Part shown: piece by piece, positions 34,932 through 42,444 of the stretch
How the letters are laid out: each line of letters opens with the position of its first letter
Numbering within the stretch: position 1 is the first letter of the stretch
Assembly: GCF_001741865.1 (NCBI RefSeq)
Contig: NZ_CP017147.1
Location: 3,897,001 to 3,961,000, forward strand
Source: Bosea vaviloviae
Lineage (GTDB): Bacteria > Pseudomonadota > Alphaproteobacteria > Rhizobiales > Beijerinckiaceae
Length of the DNA stretch: 64,000 nucleotides
Reading direction: 5' to 3'
Made by a program: the position numbers and the translations under genes
The notes under the pieces: model-generated
Told to the model about the DNA's origin: nothing
What the model saw: the letters and a program-made list of their open reading frames with translations, nothing else
The model's database searches: none

Positions 34932-35098
34932 GCTCTCATCCAAGAGTGAGAGCAGGATCAATGCGAAAAACCGGTGCCCACTTTTCGCATCCTGCTCGAA
35001 AGCGTTTTTGAACGAAGCGGACGCCGGATTGCGTGAAGAAAGCGCGTTCCAACAAAGAGCTAGAGCCATTTCCGAGCCAATCGGATCGGAAATCGCTC
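34932..35098. repeat. RIME-like palindromic intergenic element 4 (composite)
   Basis: Two modules joined: GAGCAGGATCAATGCGAAAAA paired with TTTTCGCATCCTGCTC (element 3/5 type), then AGCGTTTTTGAACGAAGCGG and TAGAGCCATTTCCGA...TCGGAAATCGCTC (element 1/6 type). The last bases overlap the TGA of the binding-protein gene at 35097. Confidence 0.82.
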
Positions 35099-36086
35099 AG
35101 TTCACATTCTGCGGCGTGACGCCGGCCGCTTGCAGTGAGGCCGCCCATTTCGCGATCTCCGCATTGAAGCGCTTCGCATGCGCCTCGCGGGTCCAGTCGC
35201 TCTCTGGGAAGGTCCGGGTGCCGGCAGATTTGAAGCGCTCGAGCACCGTGGGATCCTTGAGCGCTGCCCTGAGCGCGCCATTGAGCTTGTCGAGCACAGG
35301 GGCGGGCGTGCCCTTCGGGGCATAGAGTCCGTGCCAGATCGTCATTTCGAGGTCGGTGCCGCTCTCGCGCGCCGTCGGAGTATTGGGCAGGACATCGAGG
35401 CGTTCGGTCGAGGTCACGGCATAGGCGCGGATCTTGTCACCCTGGACCTGCGGCACGGCCGTGGTCGACTGATCGCAAAGCAGATCGACCTGTCCGGAGA
35501 CAAGGTCGTTCATCGCCGGTCCGGTGCCACGATAGGCGACCTGCGCGAACTTCACGCCAAGCGCCTGGCCCAGCAGCACGGCGCAGAGATGCGCGTTCGA
35601 GCCGATGCCGGCATGAGCGATCGTCAGCTTCTCGGCCTGGAGCTTGGCATAGGGAAAGAACGCCTTGGCATCGACCGGCGGCAGGGCGAGCTTGCCTGCG
35701 AGCACCATCGGCCCGGTATTGATCAGGCCGACCGGCGCAAAGGCCGTGCGCGTGTCATAGGTCAGATTGCCGTAGAGCGCGGGCGCCGCGGCGAGCGCGA
35801 GATGGTGGATCAAGAGCGTATGCCCATCGGGCTCCGCCGATGCGAGGCGTCGCGCTCCTGCCGTGCCGCCGGCGCCGGCGACGTTCTCGACGAGGATCTG
35901 CTGACCGAGCGTGCGCCCCATATGGTCGCCGACGAGGCGGGCGATGACGTCACTGGGCCCCCCGGCGGCGAAGGGTACGATCAGGGCGATCGGCTTGCTG
36001 GGGAAGCTTTGCGCCCATGCCGGCATGGCAAGCCCCAGGGCCAATAGCGCCCCGAATGTGAGGCGTTTCATTGTGTTCGCTGGCAT
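35097..36086 (-). CDS. TTT-type (Bug) periplasmic substrate-binding protein, probable sulfolactate receptor
   Basis: 329 residues; signal peptide LTFGALLALGLAMPAWAQ. The Bug/TctC fold is recognised by FPSKPIALIVPFAAGGPSDV and VENVAGAGGTAGARRLA at the N terminus and AYRGTGPAMNDLVSGQVDL in the middle. Start at 36086 follows GGAGGAA. TTT binding proteins deliver carboxylates to a TctAB membrane pair, which is not in this window. In other bacteria sulfolactate import has been assigned to a TTT system (SlcHFG), and the neighbours here are sulfolactate enzymes, so sulfolactate is the likely ligand (inference). Confidence 0.88.
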   Translation of the reverse strand: MPANTMKRLTFGALLALGLAMPAWAQSFPSKPIALIVPFAAGGPSDVIARLVGDHMGRTLGQQILVENVAGAGGTAGARRLASAEPDGHTLLIHHLALAAAPALYGNLTYDTRTAFAPVGLINTGPMVLAGKLALPPVDAKAFFPYAKLQAEKLTIAHAGIGSNAHLCAVLLGQALGVKFAQVAYRGTGPAMNDLVSGQVDLLCDQSTTAVPQVQGDKIRAYAVTSTERLDVLPNTPTARESGTDLEMTIWHGLYAPKGTPAPVLDKLNGALRAALKDPTVLERFKSAGTRTFPESDWTREAHAKRFNAEIAKWAASLQAAGVTPQNVN

Positions 36087-36156
36087 CCATTTCCTCCGGT
36101 TTTGAAACCGCTCTGCGGCGGCTTGGTGGGAAAGCGAGCGGATCGGACCTGGCGCG

Positions 36157-36918
36157 TCAGCGCAGGTCGGACAGGTAGTGGGCCTCCTTGGTCAGGCAGA
36201 TGCTCAGGCGTCGCTCGACCGGCGAGCCATCAAGCGAAAAGGCAATGCGGTCGATCCGCAGGGCAGCTGTGCCGACGGGTGCAGCGAGCTGGCTGGCCTC
36301 GTCGGCGTCGAGCGCCACGGCCTTCAGGCGCTCCCGCGCATTGGCGATCGTCACGCCGTAGCGTGCGGCGAACAGGCTGTAGAGATTATTGGGGATCGGT
36401 CCCGCTTCCAGCCCCGGAAAGACACGCTGCGGCAAGGTCAGCGTCTCCAGGATGATGGGGACGGCATCGAGCGACCGCAGTCGACGAATACGGATGACGT
36501 CGGCTTCTCCGTCGAGATCGAGCGCCACGTATTCGGATTCATCGGCCTTGCCGGTCTCCACCCCCAGCACGGTGCTGTCGGGAAAGCGGCGCTCGCCATC
36601 GTCGTGAACCAGCTTGAAGAACTGGAACAGGATGCGCCGCTCGTCATGCTCGGCGACGAAGGTGCCGCGGCCCTGGCGGCGCACCAGCAGGTTCTCGGCA
36701 GCGAGCTCGTCGAGCGCCTTGCGGACCGTGCCCTGGCTGACGCCGATCTCGGTGGCGAGCTGCCCTTCGCTGGGCAGGCTTTCGCCCGGCGCCCAGACGC
36801 CATCCACGAGCCGCCTGACGAAGATCGCCTTGACCTGCCGATAGAGCGGCCGGAAGCCGAGCGGCTCGGCTGTGTCGGCGACATTGCGCCTGGGATTTTC
36901 CAGCTTGTGCACACTCAT
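36157..36918 (-). CDS. GntR/HutC family regulator of the sulfolactate cluster
   Basis: 253 residues from the ATG at 36918. N-terminal winged helix (LVDGVWAPGESLPSEGQLAT, then GVSQGTVRKALDELAAENLL) and C-terminal UTRA ligand-binding domain ending RIDRIAFSLDGSPVERRLS. Divergent from suyA. A perfect 14-bp palindrome begins 2 bp upstream of its start codon, suggesting autorepression and control of the suy genes. No Shine-Dalgarno sequence is visible between palindrome and ATG, so translation may be leaderless or start differently. Confidence 0.92.
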   Translation of the reverse strand: MSVHKLENPRRNVADTAEPLGFRPLYRQVKAIFVRRLVDGVWAPGESLPSEGQLATEIGVSQGTVRKALDELAAENLLVRRQGRGTFVAEHDERRILFQFFKLVHDDGERRFPDSTVLGVETGKADESEYVALDLDGEADVIRIRRLRSLDAVPIILETLTLPQRVFPGLEAGPIPNNLYSLFAARYGVTIANARERLKAVALDADEASQLAAPVGTAALRIDRIAFSLDGSPVERRLSICLTKEAHYLSDLR

Positions 36919-36920
36919 AT

Positions 36921-36934
36921 GTCTTATATAAGAC
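36921..36934. promoter_or_regulatory. Perfect palindrome GTCTTATATAAGAC, candidate GntR operator
   Basis: 14-bp perfect palindrome between the divergent GntR gene and suyA. GT...TA...AC spacing resembles HutC-subfamily sites. It lies 2 bp from the regulator's start codon and about 66 bp upstream of suyA. Confidence 0.7.
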
Positions 36935-37000
36935 TTGGCGTCATTCAGGTCGAGCGCCGATTTGCCCGGCCGATCTGCGTCACTCCCGGAGGAGCCCCGA

Positions 37001-37288
37001 ATGAGCAAGCCCCATCTCCTGGTCCATGAAAAGAAGGACACTGTCGGCGTCGTCGTCGTCGAAGGCCTCAAGGCCGGCACGGACATGCTCGGCGTCGTCA
37101 CTCACGACAATTCCGATTTTCGCCTGACCGCCAAGATGGACATCCCGATCGGCCACAAGGTCGCGCTCAAGGACATCAAGGCAGGCGATACGATCTGGAA
37201 ATACGGCCAGGACATCGGCAAGGCCGTCGCCGATGTGAAGCGGGGCGAGCACCTGCACGTCCACAACGCCAAGACCAAGCGTTGGTGA
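37001..37288 (+). CDS. suyA: UxaA-family small subunit, probable (R)-sulfolactate sulfo-lyase alpha subunit
   Basis: 95 residues of the SAF domain found as the N-terminal part of altronate/galactarate dehydratases. Start at 37001 after GGAGGA. DIPIGHKVALKDIKAGDTIW and YGQDIG then HLHVHN are typical. Split small/large UxaA proteins include SuyAB, which cleaves (R)-sulfolactate to pyruvate and sulfite. Altronate dehydratases are usually single-chain. The downstream exporter plus SlcC- and ComC-like dehydrogenases make SuyA the best reading. The stop codon sits in a 16-bp tandem repeat. Confidence 0.85.
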   Translation: MSKPHLLVHEKKDTVGVVVVEGLKAGTDMLGVVTHDNSDFRLTAKMDIPIGHKVALKDIKAGDTIWKYGQDIGKAVADVKRGEHLHVHNAKTKRW

Positions 37289-37320
37289 GACCAAACGCTG
37301 GTGAGACCAAGCGCTGATGG
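37273..37320. repeat. 16-bp tandem repeat spanning the suyA stop codon
   Basis: Three units, 37273-37288, 37289-37304 and 37305-37320. Unit 1 holds the last codons and TGA of suyA; unit 2 repeats both with two changes; unit 3 is more diverged. Confidence 0.88.
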
Positions 37321-37419
37321 GGTTCTTGCGTCGCTGAAGGAAACCGGCGCAGGCGCCTGAAAAGAATCTGAAAAAGGGCTCCCGGCAAGGTCGAGCCCAC
37401 AACGAATGGAGGAAACGCC

Positions 37420-38700
37420 ATGTCGATCGTCGCCAATTTCGATCTCGTGAAGGGCAAGCTCGGTCGGATCAAGGGCCGCAAGATCGAGGCGCCCGAATTC
37501 AAGGCTCCGATGGTTCGGCGTCCGACCGGTCGCAGCCTCGATGCCTTCCATGGCTGGCGTCGCGAGAACGGCCGCGTCGGCGTGCGCAACCATGTGCTGC
37601 TGCTGCCGCTGGACGATCTCTCCAACGCCGCCTGCGAGGCCGTCGCCAACAACATCAAGGGCACGCTGGCGATCCCGCATGCCTATGGCCGCCTCCAGTT
37701 CGGCGAGGACCTCGACATCCATTTCCGCACCCTGATCGGCACCGGTGCGAATCCCAATGTCGCCGCGGTGGTCGTGATCGGCATCGAGGATGGTTGGACC
37801 AAGCGTGTCGTCGACGGCATCGCCGCCACCGGCAAGCCGGTCGTCGGCTTCGGTATCGAGGGCCATGGCGACATCGCCACCATCGCCAAGGCCTCCTATG
37901 TCGCCAAGGAGTTCGTGCAATGGGCGAGCGAATTGCAGCGCGAGAAATGCGGCATCGAGGAGCTCTGGGTCTCCACCAAATGCGGCGAGTCCGACACGAC
38001 GACGGGGCTCTCCTCCTGCCCGACGGTCGGCAACATGTACGATAAATGGATCCCGCGCGGCATCCACGGCGTCTTCGGCGAAACCTCGGAGATCACCGGC
38101 GCCGAGCATCTCTGCAAGGCGAGGGCTGCGACGCCCGAGGTCGGCGAGCGCTGGTACAAGATGTGGAAGGCCTACCAGGACGACGTCATCGAGGCGCACA
38201 AGACCGACGACCTCTCGGACTCGCAGCCGACCAAGGGCAACATCGCCGGCGGCCTGACCACGATCGAGGAGAAGGCGCTCGGTAATCTCGAGAAGATCGG
38301 CCGCGAGTGCAACTACATCGACATCCTGCAGCCGGCCGAGGCCCCGTCCAAGGGGCCGGGGCTCTACTATATGGACACCTCATCGGCCGCGGCCGAATGC
38401 GTGACGCTGATGGCTGCGGGCGGCTATGTCGTGCACACCTTCCCGACCGGGCAGGGCAACGTCATCGGCAATCCGATCGTGCCGGTCATCAAGATCACCG
38501 GCAACCCGAAGACGATGCGCACCATGCCCGAGCATATCGATGTCGACGTCTCCGGCATCCTGCGCCGCGACCTCACCATTCCCCAGGCCGGCGATGCGCT
38601 GATCCAGAACATCGTGCGCACCGCCAATGGCCGCTTGACCGCGTCTGAAGCATTGGGGCATCGCGAATTCTCGATGACCAAGCTCTACCGCTCGGCCTGA
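37420..38700 (+). CDS. suyB: UxaA-family large subunit, probable (R)-sulfolactate sulfo-lyase beta subunit
   Basis: 426 residues, the catalytic C-terminal part of the D-galactarate dehydratase/altronate hydrolase family. [20 protein letters not shown] at about 50-70, [20 protein letters not shown] near 185-205 and [18 protein letters not shown] near 340 match the family; the cysteines may bind iron or Fe-S. Preceded by GGAGGAA. Pairs with the SAF protein 130 bp upstream. With SuyA it is expected to release sulfite from (R)-sulfolactate; an altronate-type dehydratase is the main alternative. Confidence 0.87.
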
Positions 38701-38820
38701 GCGACTGCTATCAGCCGGAGCGGCGACGCGAGCCGTCGCTTCGGCCCTGTTTTTGCTGAAGCCATCTGCTGAAGCCCATTTGCCGAAGCCATCTCGACCA
38801 GACGAGTCGGAGCCGCGTTC

Positions 38821-39870
38821 TTGCCCGTTGCGACAACTTCACCGCTGAGCGCCTGGCGCCCCCTTCTCGACGGCATCGCGCTCTCGGTCGTCGTCGCGGT
38901 TGCCTCCGTGCTGGTCGAGCCGCTGCTCAAGGCTGCGGCCGGTGGCCGTGTCGGCGTCCCCGCCGTCGTGATTGCGCTGGTGATCGGCATGCTGCTGCAT
39001 CCCTTGGCCAACACCGTCCGCTTCGAGCCGGGCATGACCTTCTGCGTCAAGAAGCTGCTGCGGTGGGCGATCGGGCTGCTGGGCCTGCGCGTCGCGCTTG
39101 GCGACATCATTGCGCTGGGGCTCTCGACCGCGCTGCTCATCATCGCCTCGATGATCGTGACTGTGATCTGCGGCTTCCTGCTGGCGCGCTGGCTCGGCCG
39201 CGAAGCCGGGGTCGGCGCGCTTGCCGGCGTTGCAACGGCGGTCTGCGGGGCGTCGGCTGCGCTCGCGACCGCGACCGTGGTGCCCGATTATCGCGGCAAG
39301 GCGGCCGATGTCGCCTTCACCGTCATCGCCATGAACGCCTTCGCGACGCTGGCGATGCTGGCTTATCCCTTGATCTGCGCCTGGCTCGATCTCTCGCCGA
39401 TGCAGACCGGCATCATGCTGGGCGCGACCATCCATGACGTCGCCCAGGTCGTTGGCGCCGGCCAGGCGGTCTCGGACGAGGCGGCCAATGCGGCGATCAT
39501 CGTCAAGCTGTTCCGGGTGTTCATGCTGCTGCCCGCGGTGCTGGCCGTGGGCTGGTGGATGGTGCGCGAGGGCGGGCATGCCGAGCATGCGAAGGTACCG
39601 GTCCCGGTCTTCGCGATCGTCTTCCTCGGCCTGTGCCTGCTCAACAGCCTGCTGACGACGCAACCGGCGCTGGCGAGCGTCTATCTGCCGCTGCGCGACG
39701 CCTTGCTCGAGGTTTCGCGCTGGGGCTTGCTCATCGCCATCGCGGCACTTGGGCTAGGCACCTCCATGGCGGCGATGGCCCGCCTCGGCTGGCGGCACCT
39801 CGTGCTTGTCACGGGCACGAGTCTCGTCATCCTGGTTATCGTCACCGGCGGCCTGCTGGCGCTGGGCTGA
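38821..39870 (+). CDS. YeiH/PSE-family putative sulfite or sulfate exporter (SuyZ/CuyZ-like)
   Basis: 349 residues with about ten hydrophobic segments. Family motifs include LLRWAIGLLGLRVALGDI, GVATAVCGASAALATATVV and GATIHDVAQVVGAGQAVS. The start appears to be TTG at 38821; no in-frame ATG precedes the first helix. YeiH relatives such as CuyZ accompany sulfo-lyases and are thought to export sulfite. Position between suyB and the dehydrogenases supports that role. The ~120 bp upstream contains a degenerate 13-14 bp tandem repeat (GCTGAAGCCATCT type). Confidence 0.88.
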   Translation: MPVATTSPLSAWRPLLDGIALSVVVAVASVLVEPLLKAAAGGRVGVPAVVIALVIGMLLHPLANTVRFEPGMTFCVKKLLRWAIGLLGLRVALGDIIALGLSTALLIIASMIVTVICGFLLARWLGREAGVGALAGVATAVCGASAALATATVVPDYRGKAADVAFTVIAMNAFATLAMLAYPLICAWLDLSPMQTGIMLGATIHDVAQVVGAGQAVSDEAANAAIIVKLFRVFMLLPAVLAVGWWMVREGGHAEHAKVPVPVFAIVFLGLCLLNSLLTTQPALASVYLPLRDALLEVSRWGLLIAIAALGLGTSMAAMARLGWRHLVLVTGTSLVILVIVTGGLLALG

Positions 39871-39949
39871 TCGGGGAATTCGAAATGCGGATGGTGGCTT
39901 TAAGGCGACCATACCTTTCAACTCTTGAATAAGAGCCGGCCGGGACCCC

Positions 39950-40879
39950 ATGGCAGACATCATCATCACCGAATTCATGGATGAGGCCGCCGTTGCGATG
40001 CTACGCGCGCGCTACGAGGTCCATCATGACCCCGAGCTTTTCGGCAAGCCGGACGAATTGGCGGAGCTGGTTGCGCAATCTCCCGCCTTGATCGTACGCA
40101 ATCAGACGCAGGTGAGGGGGGGCGTGCTCACCGCAGCCAAGGCGCTCAAGGTCGTCGGGCGGCTCGGCGTCGGGCTCGACAATATCGACATGGAAGCCTG
40201 CACGGCGCGTGGCATCAAGGTTTTCCCAGCGACCGGCGCCAACAGCCTGTCCGTGGTCGAATACGTCATCGGCAGCGCGATGGTGCTGCTGCGTGGCGCC
40301 TATTTCGCCAATGCCGCGATGGTCGCCGGAGAATTTCCCAAGACCAAGCTGATCGGCCGCGAGATCGCCGGCAAACGGCTCGGCCTGGTCGGCTTCGGCG
40401 CGATCGCGCGCGATGCCGCCAACCACGCCCGCCTGCTCGGCATGAACGTCGTCGCCTACGATCCCTACGTGCCAGAGGACGATCCGGACTGGCAGGCGAC
40501 CCAGCGTCTCGACCTCGATGCGGTCCTCTCCAGCGCGGATGTCATCAGTATCCATTTGCCGCTGACGCCGGAAACGCGCGGATTGATCGGCAAGGAGGCC
40601 TTCGCCCGGATGAAGCCGGACGCTGTGCTAGTCAATGCAGCGCGCGGCGGCGTCATGGATGAAGAGGCGCTGATCGCGGCGCTGAAGGGTGGCAAGCTCG
40701 GCGGCGCGGCGCTCGATGTCTTCGAGGAGGAGCCTTTGCGCGAGGGCGGGAAGCGCTTCGCCGGGACGCCCAATCTGATCCTGACGCCGCATATCGCGGG
40801 CAACACGGTCGAGTCGAATGGCCGCGTCTCCGGTCTCGTCGCCGAGCGCGTCATGGCCGCGCTGGAGGGCCGGATATGA
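39950..40879 (+). CDS. slcC: D-isomer-specific 2-hydroxyacid dehydrogenase, probable (S)-sulfolactate dehydrogenase
   Basis: 309 residues of the phosphoglycerate dehydrogenase superfamily. NAD-binding GLVGFGAIARDAA near 145-157. The catalytic Arg, Glu and His lie in VNAARGGVMDEEAL, DVFEEEPL and LTPHIAGNT. In Chromohalobacter salexigens the SlcC enzyme of this type oxidises (S)-sulfolactate to sulfopyruvate. Next to suyAB and a ComC-like gene, that is the most likely role here. Overlaps the following gene by four bases. A broader hydroxyacid substrate cannot be excluded. Confidence 0.85.
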   Translation: MADIIITEFMDEAAVAMLRARYEVHHDPELFGKPDELAELVAQSPALIVRNQTQVRGGVLTAAKALKVVGRLGVGLDNIDMEACTARGIKVFPATGANSLSVVEYVIGSAMVLLRGAYFANAAMVAGEFPKTKLIGREIAGKRLGLVGFGAIARDAANHARLLGMNVVAYDPYVPEDDPDWQATQRLDLDAVLSSADVISIHLPLTPETRGLIGKEAFARMKPDAVLVNAARGGVMDEEALIAALKGGKLGGAALDVFEEEPLREGGKRFAGTPNLILTPHIAGNTVESNGRVSGLVAERVMAALEGRI

Positions 40880-41853
40880 CAAAGCTGTCGTTCGAGGCGG
40901 TCGAAACCAGGCTCGCGGACCTGTTCGCGGCGGCCGGTGCATCTCCCGCCAATGCGGCCTCCGTCGCCTGGGCGCTCGTCATGGCCGAGGCTGATGGGCT
41001 CAAAGGCCATGGCCTGTCGCGCGTGCCGACCTATCTCGCCATGCTCAGATCCGGCAAGATCGACGGGCAAGCAGTGCCGGTCGCACGCCGGCCCAAGCCC
41101 GGCGTGCTGGCGATCGACGCCGGCCATGGCTTCGCCTATCCGGCGATCGACCTCGCCGTCATCGAATTGCCGGTACTCGCCCGCGAGCAGGGCGTGGCGA
41201 TCGCCCCGATCCGGCGTTCGAACCATTGCGGCGCAGCAGGCCTCCATGTCGAGCGATTGGCCGAGCAGGGGCTCGTTGCACTGCTTTTCGCCAACACGCC
41301 GGCGGCGATCGCGCCTTGGGGCGGGGCGAAACCCGTCTTCGGCACCAATCCGATCGCCTTTGCCGCGCCGCTCGCCGGCCGCGATCCTCTGGTCATCGAC
41401 ATGGCTCTGTCGAAGGTCGCGCGCGGACCGATCGTGGCGGCCAGGCAGAAGGGCGAAGCCATTCCCGAAGGCTGGGCGCTCGACCCGGCGGGGAAGCCGA
41501 CGACCGATGCTGCGGCTGCGCTCGCCGGCACCATGGTTCCGCTCGGCGACGCCAAGGGCGCGACGCTGGCGCTGATGGTCGAGATCCTCGCCGCCTCGCT
41601 GGTCGGCGCCCATTTCGCCTTCGAGGCCTCGTCCTTCCTCGACGACAAGGGCGGTCCGCCCGACACCGGCCAGCTTATCCTCGCGATCGACCCCTCCGCC
41701 ATGGGCGGTCATTGGTTCGGCGAACGCATGCGGATGCTGGCGCATGCGATCGAGGACCAGGACGGCACAAGGCTGCCAGGCGTCAGGCGCTTGAATCTGC
41801 GTGCGAAGGCGAGGGCGGAAGGGATTGAGGTCGCTGAGGAATTGCTTCGCTAG
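40876..41853 (+). CDS. comC: Ldh/MDH2-family oxidoreductase, probable (R)-sulfolactate dehydrogenase
   Basis: 325 residues of the malate/L-lactate/sulfolactate dehydrogenase family, which has an NAD(P) fold unlike Rossmann enzymes. GHGLSRVPTYLAMLRSGKI at the N terminus, RRSNHCGAAGLHVERLAEQG with the catalytic His, and FGTNPIAFAAP are diagnostic. ComC reduces sulfopyruvate to (R)-sulfolactate, the SuyAB substrate. With SlcC it would racemise sulfolactate. Last gene of the suy group; a convergent toxin-antitoxin pair follows 11 bp later. Confidence 0.86.
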   Translation: MTKLSFEAVETRLADLFAAAGASPANAASVAWALVMAEADGLKGHGLSRVPTYLAMLRSGKIDGQAVPVARRPKPGVLAIDAGHGFAYPAIDLAVIELPVLAREQGVAIAPIRRSNHCGAAGLHVERLAEQGLVALLFANTPAAIAPWGGAKPVFGTNPIAFAAPLAGRDPLVIDMALSKVARGPIVAARQKGEAIPEGWALDPAGKPTTDAAAALAGTMVPLGDAKGATLALMVEILAASLVGAHFAFEASSFLDDKGGPPDTGQLILAIDPSAMGGHWFGERMRMLAHAIEDQDGTRLPGVRRLNLRAKARAEGIEVAEELLR

Positions 41854-41864
41854 TCGTGGCCGTT

Positions 41865-42179
41865 TCAGTCTTTTTCCTCGGCGATGGCGCCCTCAAGATC
41901 GCGGCCACCATAGAGGATCCGAAGGATGACGACCGACGAACCATCGATCCGAAAGGCGATCGTAACTCTGCGGTCGATTCCAAATGTCCGCAGACCTGTC
42001 ATCAGATGGTCGCGACGTGTTCCGCGCTCTGGGAAGTCGGATAACGCGTCATAGCTCGATTGAATGCGCCGGACATAGGTAATCGCAATCGCCGGGCTCG
42101 CGCGCTCCGATATCCAATTGTAGATCGCTTTGAGGTCCTGCCTAGCGGCCGGCCGGACGACGATGTCAAACTTGCCCAC
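41865..42179 (-). CDS. Type II toxin, RelE/ParE family
   Basis: 104 residues from a GTG at 42179 that overlaps the antitoxin gene by 14 bp. Fold pattern: IVVRPAARQDLKAIYNWISE, then YDALSDFPERGTRRD, then RILYGGRDLEGAI. ParE toxins poison DNA gyrase and RelE toxins cleave mRNA; the fold alone does not decide. Antitoxin-first order is standard. Intact reading frame suggests a functional module. Confidence 0.88.
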   Translation of the reverse strand: MGKFDIVVRPAARQDLKAIYNWISERASPAIAITYVRRIQSSYDALSDFPERGTRRDHLMTGLRTFGIDRRVTIAFRIDGSSVVILRILYGGRDLEGAIAEEKD

Positions 42180-42444
42180 GAGGCGGTGATACGCGCTGGC
42201 GGTGATATTCCTCAAGTTCCTCAAATACCTGCGCGGCTGGGATTGAGGGCCGTGGATCGGCCAGGGCCTCTTCGACCTTGGCCTTCAGGATCGCGTCGAA
42301 TTCGCGTTCCTCGCGCTCCAAGGCTCGCAAGCCGGCGCGTAGGACCTCGCTTGCCGAAGCATAGGCCCCAGACTCGACACGCGCCTCCACCTTTGCCTGC
42401 ATCTCGCCCAGCGTCACTGTCATGGGGCGACTGGTTCTGGCCAT
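42166..42444 (-). CDS. Type II antitoxin, ParD family (ribbon-helix-helix)
   Basis: 92 residues. RHH DNA-binding segment MTVTLGEMQAKVEARVESG, then YASASEVLRAGLRALEREE, typical of ParD. The acidic C terminus (VFEELEEYHRQRV) would wrap the toxin. It normally represses its own promoter. Located between comC and ade, two unrelated gene groups, so the pair marks a junction. Confidence 0.9.
   Translation of the reverse strand: MARTSRPMTVTLGEMQAKVEARVESGAYASASEVLRAGLRALEREEREFDAILKAKVEEALADPRPSIPAAQVFEELEEYHRQRVSPPRGQV

Follow-up and report, generated by a model that had tools for sequence, protein, structure and literature searches.

The sulfo-lyase SuyAB cleaves sulfolactate in Paracoccus pantotrophus and Cupriavidus pinatubonensis, and the dehydrogenases SlcC and ComC have been reported in Chromohalobacter salexigens and in most sequenced Paracoccus (PMC9594981). 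The proposal that SlcC and ComC together racemise sulfolactate is credited to Denger and Cook 2010 by later papers, as are suyR and an importer of the tripartite tricarboxylate transporter (TTT) type (PMC9594981, PMC6018796, PMC5812351); suyR and SlcHFG are named in PMC6018796. The C. salexigens SlcC falls in or beside the SerA clade (PMC6303947). SlcC, ComC, SuyA and SuyB also make up the terminal module below sulfofucose in Paracoccus wurundjeri, and Sinorhizobium mexicanum is a further case (PMC12421959). For Bosea, the accessible literature yielded a paper on acesulfame that mentions sulfolactate only in passing.

Here we describe a seven-gene cluster of Bosea vaviloviae that resembles these systems. 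It occupies positions 35097-41853 of a 64,000-nucleotide stretch of DNA (the window; contig 1, NZ_CP017147.1, positions 3897001-3961000 of the 6.71-Mb source genome, G000), with tctC and a gntR/UTRA gene on the minus strand and suyA, suyB, suyZ, slcC and comC on the plus strand (Table 1). An earlier reading made from the letters alone (the sequence-only reading) had claimed these families in this order, called SuyAB an established sulfo-lyase and SlcC and ComC a described enantiomer-converting pair, and proposed that the set degrades (R,S)-sulfolactate to pyruvate and sulfite. The seven open reading frames lie where it had placed them, each with the expected domains above the Pfam cut-offs; the sizes that it gave for SuyA and SuyB are correct, and the papers cited above bear out both background statements.

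We consider it highly likely that the cluster is a sulfolactate-catabolic divergon, combining a GntR operator, uptake by TctC, racemisation by SlcC and ComC, cleavage by SuyAB and efflux through SuyZ; the gene set very probably degrades sulfolactate to pyruvate and sulfite. One palindromic operator, situated between gntR and suyA, would be the target of the GntR/UTRA regulator. TctC would catch periplasmic sulfolactate, which would enter through an unlinked permease. SlcC would then oxidise (S)-sulfolactate to sulfopyruvate and ComC reduce sulfopyruvate to (R)-sulfolactate, the pair serving as a racemase as proposed for C. salexigens, and SuyAB would eliminate sulfite from (R)-sulfolactate to leave pyruvate. 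SuyZ presumably exports sulfite or sulfate. At other places the genome encodes two molybdopterin proteins of the sulfite-oxidase type, one of which might oxidise sulfite; they are 39% and 35% identical to the Methylobacterium oryzae one. A sulfite oxidase match was also observed near the cluster of Bosea thiooxidans (L020).

The probable sulfo-lyase and its gene company

A maximum-likelihood tree of the large subunit was built with 99 rows from 101 SuyB matches, the window copy (L095) and one of the two L102 matches being excluded. One branch (100/100) parts 90 SuyB-type rows from nine other UxaA-family rows, namely Escherichia coli UxaA and GarD, two paralogues from the genome and five plasmid-borne proteins. 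Bootstrapping had not converged (0.961), and some of the non-SuyB rows sit on very long branches, so we use only this single deep split. The outcome that the sequence-only reading named as refuting did not occur, as SuyB does not group with the altronate and galactarate dehydratases included. The SuyB clade takes in the C. pinatubonensis lyase encoded beside hpsN/hpsO (68% identical to the window protein) and the lyases of the Paracoccus clusters (79-80%). A second alignment, of 100 SuyB proteins with eight others, brought out 34 columns in which a residue at least 98% fixed among the SuyB rows is absent from the others. Two of these residues, K187 and E190, belong to the motif KCGESDTT; at this place the other proteins have CGGSD preceded by E, Q or V. 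The window protein carries all 34.

A search of 72,556 plasmid records for SuyB matched 316, of which 60 were listed. The best match had 60-90% identity in 13 of the 316 (Methylobacterium, S. mexicanum, Paracoccus, a Rhodobacteraceae strain, C. pinatubonensis, Caballeronia and Rhodococcus) and less than 60% in all the remaining records; among the 60 listed, nothing falls between 61% and 38%. This identity gap and the tree split together set low the candidate identity of the large subunit as an altronate or galactarate dehydratase. P. pantotrophus SuyB was not named among the matches listed for a Paracoccus query (120 rows of 8000 scored). The lyase is encoded as a split UxaA pair, but the non-SuyB pairs of L098-L100 are split as well, so that division into subunits is not diagnostic of SuyAB. 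Membership in the SuyB clade points to SuyAB being an (R)-sulfolactate sulfo-lyase. Bosea psychrotolerans and Bosea sp. OK403 encode a SuyB with 100% identity to the window protein, and many full-length proteins are at least 90% identical to it. Its N-terminal extension of about 30-40 residues is absent from four distant SuyB proteins aligned with it, and a strong ribosome-binding site, GGAGGAAAC, precedes the suyB start.

The genes keep steady company. Related genome loci were taken as the best 80 of 395 confirmed, so the counts lean to close relatives, and 26 of the 80 measure less than 17 kb. All 80 have a match to SuyA, 69 to ComC, 67 to GntR, 60 to SlcC, and 50 each to TctC and SuyZ. All seven genes occur together in 41 of the 80, which argues that the grouping is not due to chance. 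In the 26 closest loci (L001-L026) SuyB is 91-100% identical, and 24 of them contain all seven genes; L003 ends at a contig edge, and L026 is without a SuyZ match. At E 1e-120 or better, SuyB is present in 49 of the 67 genomes searched from the genus and in 15 of 398 drawn from the phylum, both counts including the window genome. If the proposed function is correct, sulfolactate use is widespread in the genus, judging from the lyase in these 49 genomes and the complete set in the 24 loci. Some relatives link the lyase to other sulfonate or sulfur genes. L136 and L138 join hpsN (93% and 89% to that of C. pinatubonensis) with suyAB, slcC, comC, tctC and gntR, and the M. oryzae locus combines suyAB and both dehydrogenases with a molybdopterin oxidoreductase and a sulfate-exporter-type gene. 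In addition, 24 of the 80 loci have a match to a GNAT acetyltransferase gene (Pfam), which in 23 of them is the first match to follow suyB (e.g., L013:9286-9882 and L064:10215-10808); it was not seen after suyB in the window.

The dehydrogenase pair and competing explanations

SlcC is accompanied by ComC in all 60 loci that have it. A clade of cluster SlcC proteins gathers 70 of 82 rows (FastTree support 0.897) and leaves out the seven genome paralogues tested, from 14 existing, as well as the 2-hydroxyacid dehydrogenase of a Variovorax plasmid (L098). What is more, SlcC and ComC distances correlate after the SuyB distance has been removed (partial r 0.585; none of 2000 permutations as high; 72 loci). 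In B. thiooxidans (L020), identity to the window proteins drops to 57% for SlcC and 64% for ComC, where the other loci of L001-L026 that have them reach at least 80% and 79%, despite a Bosea-like SuyB; the two dehydrogenases look as though they had been swapped as a pair. The co-divergence and the L020 pattern fit a pair that works together. The SlcC and ComC alignments and the second SuyB alignment left out L036, L095, L106, L113, the short loci L114-L134 (most of them repeats of other loci), L147 and L155.

Several results weigh against the proposed pathway. The best NCBIfam match of SlcC is TIGR01327 (phosphoglycerate dehydrogenase), below its equivalog cut-off, and the SlcC rows of clusters L057, L064, L085 and L139 fall outside the SlcC clade. 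ComC scores 188 bits on its best family, NF040650 (L-sulfolactate dehydrogenase), against a cut-off of 500. Its top PDB match is a ureidoglycolate/piperideine-2-carboxylate-type enzyme, ahead of a methanogen L-sulfolactate dehydrogenase, and a genome paralogue 50% identical to it (L156) lies inside the cluster-ComC clade. SuyZ, a PF03601 protein linked to suyAB, reaches 130 bits on TIGR00698 (YeiH family) with a cut-off of 232.6. A clear HpsN was not found in the genome. Its single match, at 39% in a 433-aa frame, is most likely histidinol dehydrogenase, for which reason we do not claim a 2,3-dihydroxypropane-1-sulfonate (DHPS) route. Finally, genes for GntR, a 2-hydroxyacid dehydrogenase, TctC, Ldh and a split UxaA pair also lie together on the Variovorax plasmid L098, but the lyase there is not a SuyB and shares only 38% identity with it. 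Gene arrangement by itself is therefore no proof; the Variovorax set is perhaps a parallel pathway for another substrate.

In an alternative explanation, SuyAB is a sulfo-lyase, but the dehydrogenases turn sulfopyruvate, formed by transamination of cysteate, into (R)-sulfolactate, or they act on some other 2-hydroxyacid. In its favour, the separation of ComC from the genome paralogue is not clean, a SerA-like enzyme could use other hydroxyacids, and in nine of the 80 loci, including at least one short contig (L050), ComC is matched but SlcC is not. On the other hand, the constant company of SlcC and ComC, their co-divergence and the racemising role proposed for the C. salexigens pair (PMC9594981) argue for joint action, and we regard this alternative as unlikely. 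The identification of ComC is nevertheless less sure than that of SuyAB. The degradation of (R,S)-sulfolactate to pyruvate and sulfite is supported in its lyase part by the SuyB clade and by the hpsN/hpsO and sulfite oxidase neighbours in relatives, and stands less firmly in its ComC part.

It is far less probable that the module serves a sugar acid or hydroxy-dicarboxylate, the UxaA-type pair dehydrating an aldonate or tartrate-like acid on which the dehydrogenases also act. For the large subunit, NCBIfam and PDB gave matches to galactarate dehydratases only, with the NCBIfam score far under its cut-off; the Variovorax set shares the gene content, and some relatives carry the enolase-superfamily gene described below. 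Against this explanation stand the position of the window lyase inside the SuyB clade, with its full complement of clade-specific residues, and the links of related lyases to sulfonate genes and exporters. A decayed or silent cluster is barely credible: the TctA partner was not found in the window, but all seven frames are open over their domains, the closest loci conserve SuyB, the gene set and the operator (perfect in 26 of 26), and SuyB is present in 49 of the 67 genomes of the genus.

An enolase-superfamily gene accompanies suyAB and comC in six loci without an SlcC match (L070:9805-10977, L061, L072, L073, L075 and L077), and L064 and L105 have one besides SlcC. Its closest PDB entries are 4kem and Bll6730, the latter of which we take to be a D-tartrate dehydratase. 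It could be a one-enzyme replacement of the racemising step, or a second lyase.

Candidate operator and transport

The listed gntR frame begins at GTG 37101 and overlaps suyA; ATG 36918 is the likelier start. The palindrome GTCTTATATAAGAC lies 2 bp before this codon and 66 bp before suyA. Its perfect form occurs only once in the genome, and the single other place with up to two mismatches has two. Because the reversed control pattern also gave two matches per strand, only the perfect match counts. In the 26 closest loci the palindrome is perfect in every case. With up to two mismatches allowed, 79 of 101 loci have it in the 250 bp that precede suyA, against five sites elsewhere in 1.57 Mb, and copies with one or two mismatches precede suyA even where gntR is not divergent (L051, L053, L058, L066). 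The palindrome is lacking from 22 loci, among them L083 and L103 (Betaproteobacteria), L085 (Actinomycetota), five of six phylum-level relatives and several Alphaproteobacteria. Second operator-like copies (one or two mismatches), away from suyA or beside the first, were seen at L084:8309, L082:5980, L054:12488 and L046:637; they are possible further members of the regulon.

The same 14-mer is the motif core of SdhR, another HutC-type GntR regulator (PMC4494728), which makes a GntR protein of HutC type a fitting binder. The palindrome is therefore not new as a motif; its use at suyA was not found in print by the searches made, nor was a link between SuyAB and GntR in the accessible literature on sulfolactate and GntR. 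The GntR/UTRA gene is possibly suyR, and tctC, downstream of it, would share control by the palindrome. The conserved operator offers a simple handle for finding the regulon. A promoter scan did not find a sigma-70-like site near the operator. A hairpin after suyB may set suyAB apart from the following genes. The scan found three terminator-like sites against a mean of 4.3 in shuffled sequences, so that the suyB hairpin is not significant alone. In 11 of 14 close loci selected for comparison, the best fold also places a hairpin of at least eight pairs, different in sequence, close to where suyB ends, as judged by eye and without a shuffle control.

The sequence-only reading had called the module near-complete for want of the TctAB-type membrane subunits, which is a fair description. 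TctA was found neither in the window nor in any of the 80 related loci (TctB was not sought apart, and 26 loci are short), and all seven TctA genes of the genome lie elsewhere. Its absence from all the related loci searched makes the gap look like a trait of the lineage and not a local loss. By coordinates, eight of the 29 TctC genes in the genome lie within 5 kb of a TctA gene and 21, including that of the window, are orphans; orphan TctC proteins are common (PMC5812351). In the related locus L140 the matches run tctC, tctA and then a TctB-sized frame, as described for slcHFG (PMC5812351). The window SlcC and ComC are 55% and 52% identical to their L140 counterparts, and the window TctC is only 26% identical to the L140 TctC (the only pair compared), so it is unlikely to be an SlcH remnant left after loss of its partners. 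Our tentative and somewhat doubtful interpretation is that the orphan TctC could be a sulfolactate (or sulfonate) binder of its own lineage, distinct from the slcHFG-type TctC and sharing an operator with the lyase genes, which would work through a general TctAB encoded elsewhere or as a periplasmic sensor. The Bosea pathway would thus have a borrowed TTT permease or none. Having one defined ligand, the case would allow a test of how a binding protein of this orphan kind recruits its permease.

Comparison with described systems

Table 1. Features of the cluster (window coordinates).
Feature	Position	Strand	Basis and remarks
tctC, TTT-type periplasmic binding protein	35097..36086	-	PF03401, 180 bits; orphan, without tctA in the window
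GntR/UTRA (HutC-type) regulator, possibly suyR	36157..36918	-	PF00392 and PF07702; divergent from suyA
Perfect 14-bp palindrome, candidate operator common to gntR-tctC and suyA	36921..36934		Genome and locus motif search
suyA, predicted (R)-sulfolactate sulfo-lyase small subunit, 95 aa	37001..37288	+	SAF domain PF08666, weak (23.3 bits, cut-off 21)
suyB, predicted large subunit, 426 aa	37420..38700	+	PF04295 and PF20629; SuyB clade
12-bp hairpin with T-rich tail, candidate terminator or 3' stabiliser	38714..38745	+	Directly 3' of suyB
suyZ, YeiH-family exporter, presumed sulfite/sulfate	38821..39870	+	PF03601, 227 bits
slcC, SerA-like 2-hydroxyacid dehydrogenase, likely (S)-sulfolactate dehydrogenase	39950..40879	+	PF00389/PF02826
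comC, Ldh2/MDH2-type, likely (R)-sulfolactate dehydrogenase	40876..41853	+	Ldh_2 PF02615, 334 bits

The slcC and comC frames share 4 bp. The flanks are ordinary, with ruvX upstream and a ParD/ParE pair, an adenine deaminase and a beta-lactamase-fold protein downstream. In 23 of the 26 closest loci, too, the cluster is followed by the adenine deaminase gene, which suggests that the site is old in this group. The ParD/ParE toxin-antitoxin pair (41865-42444) lies directly 3' of comC.

Among the systems compared, C. pinatubonensis HN-2 (L083) shares the SuyAB pair and a TTT binding protein gene downstream. It differs in having the DHPS genes hpsN/hpsO upstream; slcC and comC are unmatched in the 19 kb shown, and an operator copy was not found at up to three mismatches. 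The S. mexicanum SuyB is 81% identical to that of the window. The P. wurundjeri sulfofucose cluster has sulfosugar genes within it, whereas none were noticed beside the Bosea module among the genes viewed at 29.5-47 kb of the window.

The Paracoccus clusters (P. versutus L081, P. seriniphilus L104 and P. aestuarii L105; L104 and L105 belong to plasmid loci picked by hand, 14 of the 60 listed records) resemble the Bosea locus in a gntR gene divergent from suyA-suyB and in a sulfate-exporter-type gene. In P. versutus a sulfite oxidase gene lies further along, beyond gntR, suyAB and the exporter-type gene. Genes resembling slcC and comC are present in L104 and L105 as well, but in these two clusters tctC and the gene for a TTT permease of about 650 aa separate suyB from slcC, and the exporter gene comes last. 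The Paracoccus operator is a variant with two or three mismatches.

Compared by published description, C. salexigens likewise combines a sulfo-lyase, a regulator and a TTT binding protein with two dehydrogenases of opposite handedness, for which a joint role as a racemase was proposed, but there the importer SlcHFG is complete, whereas TctC stands alone in the Bosea window. The pathway has already been published for Chromohalobacter and others, and the Bosea cluster is a well-supported further example; what it adds to the known system is the operator, the orphan TctC of the lineage and the co-divergence of SlcC and ComC.

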